Origin: Actinokineospora spheciospongiae
GTDB lineage: Bacteria; Actinomycetota; Actinomycetes; Mycobacteriales; Pseudonocardiaceae
Direction: 5' to 3'
DNA length: 43,960 bases
NCBI RefSeq assembly: GCF_000564855.1
Contig: NZ_AYXG01000097.1
Location: 1 to 43,960, forward strand
The notes under the pieces: model-generated
The model's database searches: none
What the model was told of the DNA's origin: nothing
What the model saw: the letters and a program-made list of their open reading frames with translations, nothing else
In this document: piece after piece, positions 1,231 to 36,385 of the stretch
Numbering within the stretch: the stretch's first letter is position 1
Layout of the letters: every line of letters starts with the position of its first letter
Made by a program: the position numbers and the translations under genes

Positions 1231-1258
1231 ACTTGACATAATGTCGATTATCGAACAT
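1231..1258 (-). other. dif: dif site (chromosome dimer resolution, XerCD target)
   Basis: Read on the minus strand, this 28-mer has the Xer layout: 11-nt half-site ending ATAA, 6-nt centre TCGACA, 11-nt half-site starting TTAT. Against the actinobacterial dif consensus as I know it, the last 14 nt (ACATTATGTCAAGT) match completely, as does CGATAAT in the left arm. Only about three positions near the left outer end differ. XerC/XerD recombine at dif to resolve chromosome dimers at the terminus. Supporting context: a Xer-family recombinase gene lies 340 bp away and the strand composition flips across this gap. Confidence 0.82.
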
Positions 1259-1322: not shown

Positions 1323-1514
1323 ATTCATGGGTGATGATCCAGAGCGGCCGTCCGGCAGCCGCCTGCTTGCGCCCGGGGTACGCCAATCGCGATCCGACGC
1401 CAAGAAGGGCGCTCGGCGGCTGGGAGGCGAGGCGATCGTGCGACGCGCGCGCGAAAACGGTCGTCACAACACAGGCACTCACCCGCCGTGTCGCGCCCGA
1501 CTCGAACACCTGTT

Positions 1515-1540
1515 TGATGGATAATCGCGGTTATCCATCA
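1515..1540. other. dif-like perfect palindrome (candidate Xer recombination site or operator)
   Basis: Arms TGATGGATAA and TTATCCATCA are exact reverse complements around the 6-nt centre TCGCGG. The geometry (ATAA, 6 nt, TTAT, 11-nt half-sites) is that of a Xer core site, and the inner bases GATAATCG are shared with the dif site 260 bp away. It lies 55 nt upstream of the tyrosine recombinase start. Two readings: a recombination site for that recombinase, or an autoregulatory operator in its promoter. Confidence 0.55.
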
Positions 1541-1595
1541 CTCACACGGGGGGTCCGATGATCGACTTGTCGGTCCGGGAGGGTATGCAGGTCCA

Positions 1596-2564
1596 GTGGA
1601 GTTGAGCGAGGCGCAGGAGGCGTTCTTCGTGGCCAGGCGGTCGCGCAAGGATTCCCCGCACACGACGGCGGCGTACCGGCGGGACCTGGCCGGGGTGACC
1701 GCGCACCTGGCCCAGGCGCTGGGCACGGCCCGGATCGAGCTGGCGGACGTCACCGCGCAGGTGCTGCGGGAGGCTTTCGGGGCGTTCGCGGACACGCACG
1801 CGAAGAGTTCGGTGGCGCGGGCGTGGTCGACGTGGAACCAGTTCTTCCAGTTCTGCCTGCTGGACGGGTTGTCGGCGGGCAATCCGATGGGGGCGATCGG
1901 GCGGCCGAAACCCGGTCCCCTCTCCCCCAAGCCGCTGCGCGGTGAGCGGACGCCGGAGGAGCTGTTGACCGCGATCGCCGGTGGGGCGCGGCGGGCGCGG
2001 GCGCCGTGGCCGGAGCGGGACCTGCTGGTGTTGGCGCTGGGCCTGGTGGCGGGGTTGCGGGCGTCGGAGATGCGGGCGTTGCGGCGGTCGTCGGTGGTGG
2101 GGCGGCCGGGTGAGCGGCGGTTGTACGTGCACGGGAAGGCGAACCGGGAGCGGTCGATCCCGATCGAGGTGCCGTTGGAGCGGGTGATCGAGGCGTACCT
2201 GGTGTCGTGCGAGGTGCGGTTCCCGGGGTTGCGGTTTTCCGATGAGGGGCCGTTGGTGTTGGGGTCCGATGGTGAGGGCATTGGGCGTGGTGGGTTGGAT
2301 TACCTGGTGAAGCAGTGTTTTCGGCAGGCGGGTTTGCACGACCGGGTGCCTGCGGGGGCGAATCTGCACGCGTTGCGGCACACGTTCGCGACGCGGTTGG
2401 CGGAGGACGGGGCGAACGCGGTGGAGATCATGGTGTTGTTGGGGCACGCGAGTCTGAACACGTCGCAGGGGTACATCGATGCGACGGGTCGGGAGCGGCG
2501 GGCGGCGGCGGCGAGCAATCGCACGTATCGGGCGTTGGAGGGGTTGGGTGGGGATGGGCAGTAG
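1596..2564 (+). CDS. Tyrosine recombinase, XerC/XerD-like
   Basis: A 322-aa site-specific recombinase. The N-terminal SAM-like core-binding domain spans about 1-105 and the catalytic domain about 115-300. All active-site residues are visible: R155 (GLRASE), K181, H258 and R261 (HALRH), H284 (LLGH) and nucleophile Y293. Size and domain order are those of Xer proteins rather than large phage integrases. Start: GTG 1596 with GGGAGGG 13 nt upstream; nearby ATGs at 1558 and 1585 are out of frame. It sits beside dif and a dif-like palindrome, but not in the usual actinobacterial contexts of xerC (rpsB/dprA) or xerD (scpAB). It may therefore be an additional, terminus-linked Xer. Third positions are strongly G-biased. 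Confidence 0.85.
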   Translation: MELSEAQEAFFVARRSRKDSPHTTAAYRRDLAGVTAHLAQALGTARIELADVTAQVLREAFGAFADTHAKSSVARAWSTWNQFFQFCLLDGLSAGNPMGAIGRPKPGPLSPKPLRGERTPEELLTAIAGGARRARAPWPERDLLVLALGLVAGLRASEMRALRRSSVVGRPGERRLYVHGKANRERSIPIEVPLERVIEAYLVSCEVRFPGLRFSDEGPLVLGSDGEGIGRGGLDYLVKQCFRQAGLHDRVPAGANLHALRHTFATRLAEDGANAVEIMVLLGHASLNTSQGYIDATGRERRAAAASNRTYRALEGLGGDGQ

Positions 2565-2573
2565 GGTTCGGGG

Positions 2574-3485
2574 ATGGGTCGTCGTCGGTTGAGGTCTCCC
2601 CTGCCGCAGCGGCACGGGTTGGATGCGGCGCGGTTGCGGTTGCCGGATGGGGGTCCGTGGGTGACGGTGCGGGATCACCTGGTGGAGCGTCTCCCCCGGG
2701 TTGAGCCGTCTCGGGTCGATGAGATGTTGGTGGCGGGGCGGGTCGTGGGGTTGGACGGTCCGGTGGCGGTGGACGCGCCGTTCGTGCCGGGGATGTTCGT
2801 GTGGTTCCACCGGGATTTGCCGGTGGAGGTGGAGGTGCCGTTCGAGATTCCGGTGGTGTACCGGGATGGGGACATCGTGGTGGTGGACAAGCCGCATTTC
2901 CTGGCGTCGATCCCCCGGGGGAAGCACGTGGTGCAGACGGCGTTGGTGCGGTTGCGGCGGGAGTTGGGGATTCCGGAGTTGAGTCCGGCGCACCGGTTGG
3001 ATCGGGTGACGGCGGGGTTGTTGTTGTTCGTGGTGCGGCCGGAGTTGCGGGGGCGGTATCAGGGGATGTTCAAGGATCGGGTGGTGCGGAAGGAGTATGC
3101 GGCGGTGGCGCCGGTGCGGGGGGATTTGGAGTTGCCGGTGGTGGTGCGGTCGCGGATCGAGAAGGAGCGTGGGGTGATCCAGGCGCGGGAGGTGGTTGGG
3201 GAGCCGAATGCGGAGACGTTGGTGGAGTTGGTGGGGCAGCGGGGTGGGTTGGGGTTGTACCGCCTGTCCCCCGCCACTGGGCGGACGCATCAGCTCCGGT
3301 TGCACATGGCGGGGTTGGGGGTGCCGATCGTGGGTGATGATTTCTACCCGGTGTTGACGGAGCGGGCGTTGGATGATTTTTCGCGGCCGTTGCAGTTGTT
3401 GGCGCGGGTGTTGGAGTTCGTTGATCCGGTGTCGGGTGGGTTGCGGCGGTTTGAGAGTGGGTTGTCGTTGTCGGCGTGGGGGTGA
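2574..3485 (+). CDS. RluA-family pseudouridine synthase
   Basis: A 303-aa enzyme that isomerises specific uridines in rRNA or tRNA to pseudouridine. The signature HRLDRVTAG begins at residue 140, with catalytic D143. DIVVVDKPHF (about 100-109) and the C-terminal GRTHQLRLHM motif are typical of the family. The N-terminal 80 residues are the short S4-like/linker region. The gene starts at ATG 2574, 9 nt after the recombinase stop, so the two could be cotranscribed. The exact target RNA position cannot be told from sequence. Codons are extremely GTG, TTG and GGG-rich. Confidence 0.88.
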   Translation: MGRRRLRSPLPQRHGLDAARLRLPDGGPWVTVRDHLVERLPRVEPSRVDEMLVAGRVVGLDGPVAVDAPFVPGMFVWFHRDLPVEVEVPFEIPVVYRDGDIVVVDKPHFLASIPRGKHVVQTALVRLRRELGIPELSPAHRLDRVTAGLLLFVVRPELRGRYQGMFKDRVVRKEYAAVAPVRGDLELPVVVRSRIEKERGVIQAREVVGEPNAETLVELVGQRGGLGLYRLSPATGRTHQLRLHMAGLGVPIVGDDFYPVLTERALDDFSRPLQLLARVLEFVDPVSGGLRRFESGLSLSAWG

Positions 3486-3587
3486 GCGGGTGGGGGTGGA
3501 GTTGAGCGGGATGTCGTGGGCGGGGGCGGGTGTCGGTGGTGGTGGGTAGCATCGGGGGTGTTGGAGACGATCCGGGGAGGTCGGTCG

Positions 3588-4052
3588 ATGACGGAGCGCA
3601 AGCCTGCCGGGGTGGGCTTCGAGTCCTGGGTGGAGTCGCAGATCAGCGAGGCCCGGAACCGGGGGGATTTCGACAACCTGCCGGGTGCGGGGAAGCCCCT
3701 GCCCCGTGGTGGTGATTGGTTGAGTGGTTATCTGCGTCGTGAGGGGGTGGAGACGCGGGAGGTGTTGCCGCCGCAGTTGCGGTTGCGGCGGGAGGTGGAG
3801 TTGATCCCGGAGCGGGTGGGGGCGCTGCGGTCGGAGGCGGAGGTGCGGGCGGTGGTGCGGGACGTCAACGGCCGTATTGATGAGTGGATGCGGACGGGGT
3901 CGGGTCCGGTGTTGGTCCGGTTCGTCGACGAGGACGAGGTGGTGGCGGGGTGGGTGGCGTCTCGGCCGGTGGAGCCGCCCGTGGTGGCGCCGGTGGTGGA
4001 GGCGGGTGGGGTGTCGCGGCGGTCGTGGTGGCGGCGGTGGTCGTCGACCTGA
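3588..4052 (+). CDS. DUF1992 protein (DnaJ-homologue subfamily C member 28 conserved domain)
   Basis: A 154-aa cytoplasmic protein. The first 75 residues carry the DUF1992 pattern: ESWVESQISEARNRGDFDNL followed by PGAGKPLP. A helical region and a low-complexity V/P/R tail ending SRRSWWRRW follow. The domain is shared with the C-terminal part of DNAJC28-like proteins, but no J domain is present; its role is not known. ATG 3588 has GGGGAGG at 3574-3580; the frame is open upstream but not coding-like. Confidence 0.82.
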   Translation: MTERKPAGVGFESWVESQISEARNRGDFDNLPGAGKPLPRGGDWLSGYLRREGVETREVLPPQLRLRREVELIPERVGALRSEAEVRAVVRDVNGRIDEWMRTGSGPVLVRFVDEDEVVAGWVASRPVEPPVVAPVVEAGGVSRRSWWRRWSST

Positions 4053-16531: not shown

Positions 16532-17659
16532 GTGGACCTCCAGCGCTACCGGGCACCGACCTTCACCGACACCGACGGCAACGGGCTGCTGCGGCTGATC
16601 GGTGAGGCCGTCGACCTGCTGCCCGCGCTGCCCCCGCCCGACCCCGATGACCGCTACCACGCGCGCAGCCTCACCTCGGTGTGGTTGGCCGGGCTCAGCC
16701 AGACCAGCCGCCGCGGCTACTACCAGGCGCTCGGGTCGTGGTTGGCGTGGTGCGCCGAGCGCGGGGTCGACCCGCTGGCCGCGCGCAAGGCCGACACCGA
16801 CGCGTGGAAGGCGGGCATGACCGCCACCCGCCGCGACGAGCAGGGCGGGCAGGTGGCGGTGGCACCGTCGCGGGCCACGACGGCGAAGCGGCTGGCGGTG
16901 GTGTCCTCGTGGTACCGGTACCTGATCGCCAACGAGGTCGACGTGCGCAACCCCGCCGCGGCGACCGAGCGGCCGCGGGTCTCCCGCGAGTCCACCACCA
17001 CCTCGCTGACCGTGCAGGAGATGGTGGGCTTCCTCGACTGGCTCCTCGAGCGCGCCCGCCGCCTGGGCACCGAGACCGCCTGGCGCGACGCGGCCCTGCT
17101 CACCGTGCTGTTCAGCATCGGCCTGCGGGTCACCGCCGGGGCCACCGCCCGCGTGGAGGACCTGCGCCGCACCGCCGGCTACACGGTCCTGCGCTACCGC
17201 CGCAAGTCCCGCGGCGACGCCGACGACTTCGGTCGCAAACCCCTGCCGCCGCACGTGGTGGAGGTGCTCACCGAGTACCTGCGGGTCCGCGCCGAGCGCG
17301 AGGGCGTCGCCGTGGCGGACCTGGGTGGATACCTGTTCGTCTCCACCCCGCACCCGCACCTGCCGCAGTACCGGGGCGGGCAGCCGCTGGGGCAGAACGA
17401 CGTCGACGCCAAGATGCGCGACCTGGCCCGCCAGGCCGGGCTCACCTGCTGGCGCACCCTGAGCCCGCACTCGGCCCGGCACACCGCGGGCACCGCCGCC
17501 CTCGCCGCCGGGGCCACCCTGGAGCAGGTCCGCCGGATGCTCGACCACGCCACGGTGACCACCACCCAGCGCTACCTGCACGAGCACGATGACCTGGCCA
17601 ACAGTGCCGTCTGGCACCTGTCGGAGGCCATCGCGCGCCAGCGCGGGCGTCAGCCCTGA
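16532..17659 (+). CDS. Tyrosine recombinase/integrase
   Basis: 375 aa. A core-binding domain (about 40-150, including SRRGYYQALGSWLAWC) precedes the catalytic domain. Catalytic residues are R199 (GLRVTAG), K225, H313 and R316 (HSARH), H339 (MLDH) and Y348 (TTQRYLH). It is not flanked by a tRNA gene, excisionase gene or phage genes, and no attachment-site repeat was seen in the adjacent 90 bp. It looks like a stand-alone chromosomal Xer-type recombinase, or the survivor of an integrated element. Start is GTG 16532; the gene is convergent with the amidase gene. Confidence 0.85.
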   Translation: MDLQRYRAPTFTDTDGNGLLRLIGEAVDLLPALPPPDPDDRYHARSLTSVWLAGLSQTSRRGYYQALGSWLAWCAERGVDPLAARKADTDAWKAGMTATRRDEQGGQVAVAPSRATTAKRLAVVSSWYRYLIANEVDVRNPAAATERPRVSRESTTTSLTVQEMVGFLDWLLERARRLGTETAWRDAALLTVLFSIGLRVTAGATARVEDLRRTAGYTVLRYRRKSRGDADDFGRKPLPPHVVEVLTEYLRVRAEREGVAVADLGGYLFVSTPHPHLPQYRGGQPLGQNDVDAKMRDLARQAGLTCWRTLSPHSARHTAGTAALAAGATLEQVRRMLDHATVTTTQRYLHEHDDLANSAVWHLSEAIARQRGRQP

Positions 17660-34819: not shown

Positions 34820-36385
34820 TCACTCCCCGTCGAGCAGGGTGGTGGCGGGGTTGAGGTAGCCCTCGGCCTTCTCCACGACGCCGTCGGCGCCCTTGCCCCG
34901 GTCGGCGGGGCGCTTCATCAGCCCGAAGGTGCCGCGGCCGATGGCGGTCAGCAGCCCGTCGTCGACGACGCGTTCGAGCAGGTCGACGGCTTCGCCGAGG
35001 ACCTGGTGGGCGCGCTTGACGATGAGCCCGTCGGGGGTGGGGCGGAAGTCCTCGGCGAGGGTCCCGGCCGCCTCCAGCACGTAGCGGACGTTGCCCAGGG
35101 CCAGGTCGCGGTCGGACAGGAACGGGGTCACCACCGCCTCGGTCATCATCCCGACCAGCAGGATCGACTGGCCGGTGAGGACCCCGGCGAGGTTGAAGAA
35201 CCCGTCGAGCAGGTGCCCGTCGAACACGTTGCCGGTCATGTGCTTGGTCGGCGGCATCCACTTCAGCGGGGCGTCGGGGAACAGCTCGCGGGCCAGCAGC
35301 GCGTGCGCCAGCTCCAGCCGGAAGGAGTCGGGCACCTTCGGGTTGATCTCGAAGGCGTGCCCGAGGCCCAGCAGCTCGTCGGGCAGCCCGGCCTCGTGGG
35401 CGAAGCGCTCGTTGAGCAGTTGGGAGACGGTGACGGTGTGCGCGGCGTCCACGGCGTCGTCGGTGGTGAGGTAGTTGTCCTCGCCGGTGTTGATGATGAT
35501 CCCGGCGCGGGCGTGGACCTGGCGGGAGAACCGCTGGTCGACGAAGGTGCGGACGGGGTTGATGTCGCGGAAGAGGATGCCGTACATGGAGTCGTTGAGC
35601 ATCATGTCGAGCCGTTCGAGCCCGGCGAGGACGGCGATCTCGGGCATGCACAGCCCGGAGGCGTAGTTGGTGACCCGCACGTAGCGGCCCACCTCGCGCG
35701 ACACCTCGTCCATCGCCGCGCGCATGATGCGGAAGTTCTCCTGGGTGGCGTAGGTGCCCGCGAACCCGTGGTGGGTGGCGCCCTCGGGCACGTAGTCCAG
35801 CAGCGACTGCCCGGTGGAGCGGATGACGGCGATGATGTCGGCGCCTGCGCGGGCGGCGTTGGCGGCCTGCACCACGTCCTCGTCGATGTCGCCGGTGGCC
35901 ACGATCAGGTAGATCCACGGCCGCTGCGGCGGGTCCCCCAGCCTGGTGACGAGCTTGTCGCGGGTGGCCCGGTTGCGGTCGACGGTGCGCAGCCCCCTGG
36001 CCACCGCGGTGCGGGCTGCCTTGCCCGCGCGGGTCGCGGCGGCCCCGGTGGGCAGGGTGAAGCGCACCTGACCGGCTGCGGTGGCCTCGGCGAGGTCGGT
36101 CAGCGAGCCCAGGTCGTGCTCGCGCAGGGCATGGAACACCGGCAGCACCACCCCGTGCTCCAGGCCGCAGTGCTCGCCGACGGTGTCGACGACCCGGTTG
36201 ACCCACGGCACGTCCCCGGCGCGGTGGGCGGTGTCGGCGCCGGTGATCCCGGCCAGGCGCAGCGTGGCCCGCTCCACCGCGACGGTGGTGTGCGCGCGGG
36301 CCAGCGCCACCACCGGTTCGGCGGCGCGGGCGGCCAGGTCCCTGGCGCGGGACACCACGGCCGGGTCGAGGTCAAGAAGCGGCAT
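34820..36385 (-). CDS. kamD: Lysine 5,6-aminomutase alpha subunit
   Basis: 521 aa, TIM-barrel subunit that holds the adenosylcobalamin-dependent active site. Conserved blocks are IAVIRSTGQSLLDYVPEGAT, GFAGTYATQENFRIM, NYASGLCMPEIAVLAG and MMLNDSMYGILFRDIN. Length matches the clostridial alpha subunit. It starts at ATG 36385, overlapping the amidohydrolase gene by 14 nt, and is followed 4 nt later by kamE. Substrate is D- or beta-lysine; given kamA in the locus, beta-lysine is more likely. Confidence 0.93.
   Translation of the reverse strand: MPLLDLDPAVVSRARDLAARAAEPVVALARAHTTVAVERATLRLAGITGADTAHRAGDVPWVNRVVDTVGEHCGLEHGVVLPVFHALREHDLGSLTDLAEATAAGQVRFTLPTGAAATRAGKAARTAVARGLRTVDRNRATRDKLVTRLGDPPQRPWIYLIVATGDIDEDVVQAANAARAGADIIAVIRSTGQSLLDYVPEGATHHGFAGTYATQENFRIMRAAMDEVSREVGRYVRVTNYASGLCMPEIAVLAGLERLDMMLNDSMYGILFRDINPVRTFVDQRFSRQVHARAGIIINTGEDNYLTTDDAVDAAHTVTVSQLLNERFAHEAGLPDELLGLGHAFEINPKVPDSFRLELAHALLARELFPDAPLKWMPPTKHMTGNVFDGHLLDGFFNLAGVLTGQSILLVGMMTEAVVTPFLSDRDLALGNVRYVLEAAGTLAEDFRPTPDGLIVKRAHQVLGEAVDLLERVVDDGLLTAIGRGTFGLMKRPADRGKGADGVVEKAEGYLNPATTLLDGE

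Follow-up and report, generated by a model that had tools for sequence, protein, structure and literature searches.

We analyzed a 43,960-nucleotide stretch of DNA from Actinokineospora spheciospongiae (contig NZ_AYXG01000097.1, the whole of which is called the window below) in which the chromosomal recombination site dif is accompanied by a second, palindromic site and by the gene for a third Xer-like tyrosine recombinase. The simplest reading is that this recombinase and its palindrome form a single-recombinase, Xer-type system whose site is required at the terminus and which is additional to XerCD/dif. We moderately favor the fuller interpretation that this third system, with its own 28-bp palindrome beside dif, serves terminus resolution in parallel with XerCD/dif. 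A preliminary description of the window had recognized dif but mentioned neither the palindrome nor the recombinase gene, both of which lie within 0.4 kb of it; these are the more interesting part of the locus. The features concerned are the following.

Positions 1231 to 1258, minus strand: dif, the XerCD site, ATGTTCGATAA-TCGACA-TTATGTCAAGT in an 11-6-11 arrangement, unique in its own genome.
Positions 1514 to 1541, plus strand: second recombination-like site, TTGATGGATAA-TCGCGG-TTATCCATCAC, an 11-6-11 palindrome in which 10 of 11 arm positions pair.
Positions 1596 to 2564, plus strand: gene for a third Xer-like tyrosine recombinase of 322 amino acids, with Pfam Phage_integrase and SAM_1 matches.
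Positions 1502 to 1517, plus strand: putative LexA-like (SOS) box, TCGAACACCTGTTTGA, agreeing at 11 of 12 fixed positions and sharing 4 bases with the outer left arm of the second site.
Positions 1567 to 1589, plus strand: putative PafBC-type promoter, TTGTCGGTC-N8-TATGCA, agreeing at 10 of 12 fixed positions and immediately upstream of the gene.

The palindrome is located 0.28 kb from dif in the window, between dif and the recombinase gene. It shares with dif both the 11-6-11 geometry and the inner ATAA and TTAT sequences; however, dif has distinct XerC and XerD arms, whereas the second site consists of two near-identical arms. In all 16 Actinokineospora genomes (that of A. spheciospongiae included), the pattern ATGSATAA-N6-TTATSCAT was found at a single place per genome, with no match in the reversed control, and the distance between palindrome and dif was 259 to 342 bp, start to start. 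This spacing was retained in congeners G001, G015, and G013, in which the gene lies 0.9, 0.9, and 5.3 kb from dif, respectively. The conserved arms are consistent with binding by a single enzyme, and the variable 6-bp center with recombination between identical sister copies. It is very probable that the recombinase cuts the palindrome. A telomere-resolvase reading of the palindrome was set aside, on reasoning alone, because the 6-bp center (e.g., TCGCGG) is not symmetric.

The catalytic residues R155, K181, H258, R261, H284, and Y293 of the recombinase were invariant in 38 of 38 sequences; the start codon is uncertain and may be GTG at 1596 or, from comparison with congeners, TTG at 1602. Against the NCBIfam equivalogs the protein scored 139 for XerC (cut-off, 335) and 123 for XerD (cut-off, 330), and in a tree it was placed apart from the XerC and XerD rows, so that an identity as either protein was rejected. 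Elsewhere in the same genome there is an XerD gene scoring 334 bits, above the cut-off, and a gene with its best score to XerC at 280 bits, below the cut-off. Homologues carried the source names "tyrosine-type recombinase/integrase," XerC, or XerD among the 120 of 1,085 proteins listed. A comparison of folds was discarded as proof of an Xer identity, since archaeal Xer, the Brujita integrase, XerH, and the Tn1549 and lambda integrases were nearly tied.

The association of the palindrome with dif extended well beyond the genus. The named-genome set comprised the best 80 of at least 455 relatives, and a single dif was recognized at 4 or fewer mismatches in 61 of them. Scanning with ATAA-N6-TTAT, which was adopted after a stricter palindrome scan missed the Lentzea, Kutzneria, and two Kribbella loci, placed the palindrome within 2 kb of dif at 59 of these 61 loci, which represent genera such as Amycolatopsis, Lentzea, Kutzneria, Crossiella, Saccharothrix, Kribbella, Nocardiopsis, Micromonospora, and Actinoplanes. 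Even at the nine loci where the gene is 4.0 to 7.6 kb from dif, the palindrome was still 278 to 700 bp from dif. For the other 19 relatives, including Saccharopolyspora, Actinopolyspora, and metagenome-assembled Acidimicrobiia genomes, no dif was recognized in the stretches examined. Most Micromonosporaceae loci (e.g., L093, L101, and L120) were found to have dif inverted relative to the palindrome and gene, compared with Pseudonocardiaceae.

A separate survey covered 200 Pseudonocardiaceae genomes, with the recombinase called at an E value of 1e-40 or lower and 11 candidates scored per genome. The recombinase was present in 107 of the 200, and at least 92 of the 107 had a dif match. In 67 of the 92 genomes listed, the recombinase and dif were less than 15 kb apart, with dif upstream of the gene in every case (67/67). 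The two were unlinked in the other 25, either because dif and the gene shared a contig but were separated by 143 kb to 1.08 Mb (10 genomes) or because they were on different contigs (15 genomes). Twenty of these unlinked genomes were examined, and in all 20 a palindrome with 7 to 11 of 11 arm positions paired was located 335 to 617 bp from dif. Nine of the 20 had been picked in the knowledge that a second dif-like match existed; among the 11 picked blind to it, the palindrome was likewise present in 11. Conversely, when 20 genomes that have dif but no recombinase were scanned (6 genera, 2.7 kb each), a second ATAA-N6-TTAT site was found in none.

These unlinked genomes bear on the alternative that the palindrome is a regulatory operator, used for recombinase autoregulation or by a repressor, rather than a recombination site. 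In Actinokineospora, the palindrome overlaps the LexA-like box and has dif on one side and the recombinase promoter on the other, an arrangement that would suit such a role, and palindromes with variable centers are also bound by dimeric repressors. Against this, the palindrome remained beside dif in all 20 genomes examined in which the gene is at least 143 kb away or on another contig. Moreover, the DNA beyond the palindrome in those genomes fell into 7 unrelated groups, so that there is no constant neighbor gene, which argues against an operator, as does the finding that absence of the palindrome tracks absence of the recombinase (0/20). We regard the operator as improbable.

Joint occurrence was also apparent at the level of the class. 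Among 296 class genomes, 21 had both the recombinase and the palindrome, 1 had the recombinase alone, 3 had the palindrome alone, and 271 had neither; this count covers the recombinase and the palindrome, and its P value of about 6e-28 ignores relatedness. One genus of Mycobacteriaceae-like genomes (G018, G229, G281, and G305) had 1 to 4 palindrome copies, two of these genomes being without a recombinase match. Some of the copies may be plasmid borne, as the coordinates of the gene on G018:C2 are those on plasmid NZ_CP092363.2.

Several observations weigh against a dedicated enzyme and site anchored at dif. Two of the 61 named loci, L124 and L127, had no palindrome. The side of dif on which the palindrome lies is not fixed, being the XerC-arm side at 36 of 59 loci and the XerD-arm side at 23 of 59; we take 21 of these 23 to be Micromonosporaceae. 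In the class-wide count, G230 lacked an exact palindrome despite having the recombinase, G281, G305, and G052 had the palindrome but no recombinase match, and in G186 and G195 the palindrome was downstream of the gene. In the comparison of folds, the Z scores of other tyrosine recombinases were almost equal to that of XerH. Finally, plasmid L205, one of four plasmids carrying a homologue of the gene, was without a palindrome.

Those homologues, at approximately 40% identity, are on Mycobacterium and Mycolicibacterium plasmids. In three of the four, a palindrome of this kind, likewise 11-6-11 and paired at 10 of 11 arm positions, was found 91 to 718 bp before the matched start. Within approximately 7 kb of DNA at these three loci (about 3 kb on each side), there was no other ATAA-N6-TTAT site and thus no usual dif, which indicated that the enzyme and site also travel together without dif nearby. 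Plasmid multimer-resolution modules are a known class of system. The mycobacterial plasmid pairs resemble the chromosomal pair in that the recombinases belong to the same clade and the same kind of palindrome is near the gene in three of four cases; in contrast, the chromosomal site described here is tied to dif and not to the gene.

The plasmid homologues, with their sites, also lend something to the alternative that the gene belongs to a mobile element as its integrase and that the palindrome near dif serves for attachment, conservation being due to domestication or to repeated insertion. The several palindrome copies in G018 and G229 fit this alternative, as does the fact that dif is a common target of tyrosine recombinases, according to the available text of PMC5357621. 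On the other hand, the palindrome is single copy in 16 of 16 congeners, which means that there is no left and right attachment pair, and orthologues 79 to 88% identical occupy the same place in all 15 other congeners. Furthermore, the best phage matches among those listed were only about 30% identical, and a phage origin of the recombinase was rejected on this basis. We consider the mobile element unlikely.

A third alternative is that the recombinase and the palindrome have some other job at the terminus, such as catenane removal without dimer resolution, control of dif, or anchoring of the terminus, and that recombination is secondary. Genes for XerC and XerD exist as well, so that a second route of dimer resolution is not obviously needed, and anchoring of the palindrome beside dif was strict in the sets examined. 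The plasmid pairs argue otherwise, because in the absence of a usual dif nearby, multimer resolution is the simplest use for them. Such another function is unlikely, and resolution by recombination at the palindrome remains the reading that we prefer.

The site to which the palindrome is anchored is a real and ordinary dif. The preliminary description had proposed an actinobacterial dif on the minus strand, with the segments ACATTATGTCAAGT and CGATAAT intact and half-sites in 11-6-11 geometry, and all of this was borne out: the 21 fixed bases of CGATAATNNACATTATGTCAAGT were matched with 0 mismatches. This was the one match in the window at 0 mismatches, and none of 100 shuffled windows had a match at 3 or fewer. 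The scan of the whole genome that had been suggested was performed on the 7.53-Mb draft, and positions 1231 to 1258 were the sole match at 3 or fewer mismatches. Similarly, exactly one copy per genome was found at 2 or fewer mismatches in 16 of 16 Actinokineospora genomes. By our own count, 21 of 28 bases were identical to the Frankia alni dif given in the part of PMC3025954 available, and the 7 differences comprised 5 in the outer XerC arm and 2 in the center. The same part of that study reports predicted dif sites in 66 of 66 single-chromosome actinobacterial genomes, and the site at 1231 to 1258 is a usual member of this actinobacterial XerCD/dif group by its sequence, its single copy, and its place opposite oriC in relatives. 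Another palindrome, ACGTCACNGTGACGWT, is present at 1309 to 1324, approximately 50 bp from dif, and was visible in roughly 12 of 16 aligned congeners.

The draft comprises 262 contigs, of which the window is one (C96) in its entirety; dif lies 1.2 kb from the left end of this contig, and the position of dif on the replicon was therefore testable in relatives only. A dnaA domain was present in all 19 genomes queried, and in 9 complete relatives, 3 of them congeners, dif and dnaA were separated by 0.449 to 0.498 of the chromosome. Polar sequences gave a similar picture. The heptamer GGGGGAG, selected from a 300-kb stretch of congener G003, was found 603 times pointing toward dif and 17 times pointing away at the 61 named loci (up to 21 kb each), with a majority toward dif at all 61. 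Between dif and the second site, it pointed to dif in 10 of 10 cases among 95 loci. Polar motifs near termini have been described (PMC5993296, in the text available), and the polarity of GGGGGAG is what FtsK-orienting sequences would look like. In the window, all 7 copies lying up to 12.6 kb from dif pointed toward it, but of the copies farther out 6 pointed toward dif and 7 away, and the DNA beyond 12.6 kb might be foreign or rearranged. The uniqueness of dif, its place opposite dnaA in the complete relatives, and the polarity of GGGGGAG together support the earlier placement of the window at the replication terminus.

A check of guanine-cytosine skew, also proposed earlier, was of no help genome-wide. 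A local change of sign was seen at dif, with the skew in G003 negative to the left and positive to the right for approximately 12 kb on each side, but comparable swings occurred 24 to 30 kb away, and no clear switch was seen genome-wide in G003, where forty 20-kb stretches gave values of only -0.122 to +0.082. Genome-wide skew was thus unusable as proof of the terminus in G003, and the terminus call rests on the other grounds. Locally, strand asymmetry around dif was strong. In the window, the skew was -0.22 in positions 1 to 2000 and +0.41 in positions 2001 to 4000 and faded by 12 kb. At the named loci, the 3 kb to the left of dif was negative in 45 of 56 cases and the 3 kb to the right was positive in 53 of 59; Nocardiopsis loci had positive skew on both sides of dif.

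Other genes in the window include a second, different tyrosine recombinase gene at 16532 to 17659 (plus strand), which scored 93 bits to XerD, below the cut-off; many congeners have a further tyrosine recombinase match roughly 4 to 80 kb from dif. A gene for the D-lysine 5,6-aminomutase alpha subunit at 34820 to 36385 (minus strand) is apparently unrelated to the second site.

The sequences upstream of the recombinase gene suggest a link to DNA damage. The PafBC-related motif is given as tTGTCRgtg-8 nt-TannnT in the accessible text of PMC5656591, and the sequence just upstream of the gene resembles it at 10 of 12 positions; we found no report of an Xer-type recombinase as a member of this DNA-damage regulon. 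In all 16 congeners the motif was located at -29 of the gene and agreed at 9 to 11 of 12 positions; it was at -29 to -32 in 23 of the 24 loci L061 to L084, while Saccharopolyspora-type genes had a similar motif at -54 to -79. Candidate PafBC-type promoter sequences were thus seen in most Pseudonocardiaceae examined, and the fixed placement at -29, to which relatedness contributes, is a stronger point than the motif score. Exact copies of the motif occurred 11 times in the genome and 0 times in the reversed control, and the 3 that were scanned among the 11 mechanically called downstream open reading frames encode a proteasome ATPase, UvrA, and a DNA polymerase III beta-clamp protein. The LexA consensus is tCGAAC-N4-GNNCGa according to the part of PMC9380542 available, and in 15 of 16 congeners the LexA-like box overlapped the palindrome's left arm with the same offset.

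Regulation by DNA damage is weakened by several points. Of 80 shuffled sequences, 16 reached 9 or more of the 12 PafBC positions and 2 reached at least 10, and the imperfect copy at the recombinase (10/12) is not among the 11 exact copies. No consistent PafBC motif was found in Micromonosporaceae, Nocardiopsis, or the Actinopolyspora-like clade. The LexA-like box was confined to Actinokineospora and absent in other genera, and LexA control as a general feature was rejected. Within Actinokineospora itself, damage induction of the recombinase gene appears likely from these promoter sequences.

Based on these results, we propose that four copies of one recombinase would bind the half-sites of two sister copies of the palindrome and that strand exchange across the 6-bp center would then take place between the sister palindromes. 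Chromosome dimers or sister links would in this way be resolved in parallel with XerCD/dif, chiefly under DNA damage that makes sister crossovers more numerous; it is the damage-type promoter that suggests use when such crossovers are frequent. The palindrome would stay by dif because FtsK brings that DNA to the division septum. We estimate that terminus resolution is slightly more likely than not to be the outcome.

Well-studied bacteria have one chromosome-resolution system, either XerCD/dif or a single-recombinase replacement. Close parallels are XerS/difSL and XerH/difH, which, as described in the available text of PMC5357621, likewise use one recombinase and a terminus site, with a gene that often adjoins the site; linkage of gene and site is mentioned there as a possible hallmark of these single recombinases. 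The fold is also similar. The anatomy and co-occurrence found here likewise point to one recombinase with a near-symmetric terminus site. XerS and XerH, however, replace XerCD, whereas here XerD- and XerC-type genes and dif coexist with the new site, and the protein and site sequences form a distinct group. In the literature covered (titles and the starts of abstracts, with subscription journals mostly outside), nothing was found that describes, for actinobacteria, another terminus site next to dif or a third recombinase of the Xer type. No actinobacterial group appears in the accessible part of the tyrosine recombinase classification in PMC8138268, and the available text of PMC4210621 places the Kutzneria albida dif opposite oriC and does not mention a second site.

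On balance, we lean slightly toward the view that large actinobacterial groups combine XerCD/dif with a damage-inducible third Xer recombinase whose palindrome stays anchored at dif even when the gene moves and whose ancestry is shared with plasmid modules. If true, the upkeep of a second system by dif in Pseudonocardiaceae, Micromonosporaceae, Nocardiopsis relatives, and Kribbella would imply that these large genomes require, or benefit from, an additional crossover site at the terminus. Chromosome resolution would also be coupled to the DNA-damage response, a new one-protein pair of recombinase and site would become available, and the role of a third terminus recombinase becomes a directly testable question. 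Many soil actinobacteria keep, at the end point of replication, a module that may help to separate joined chromosomes after DNA damage.
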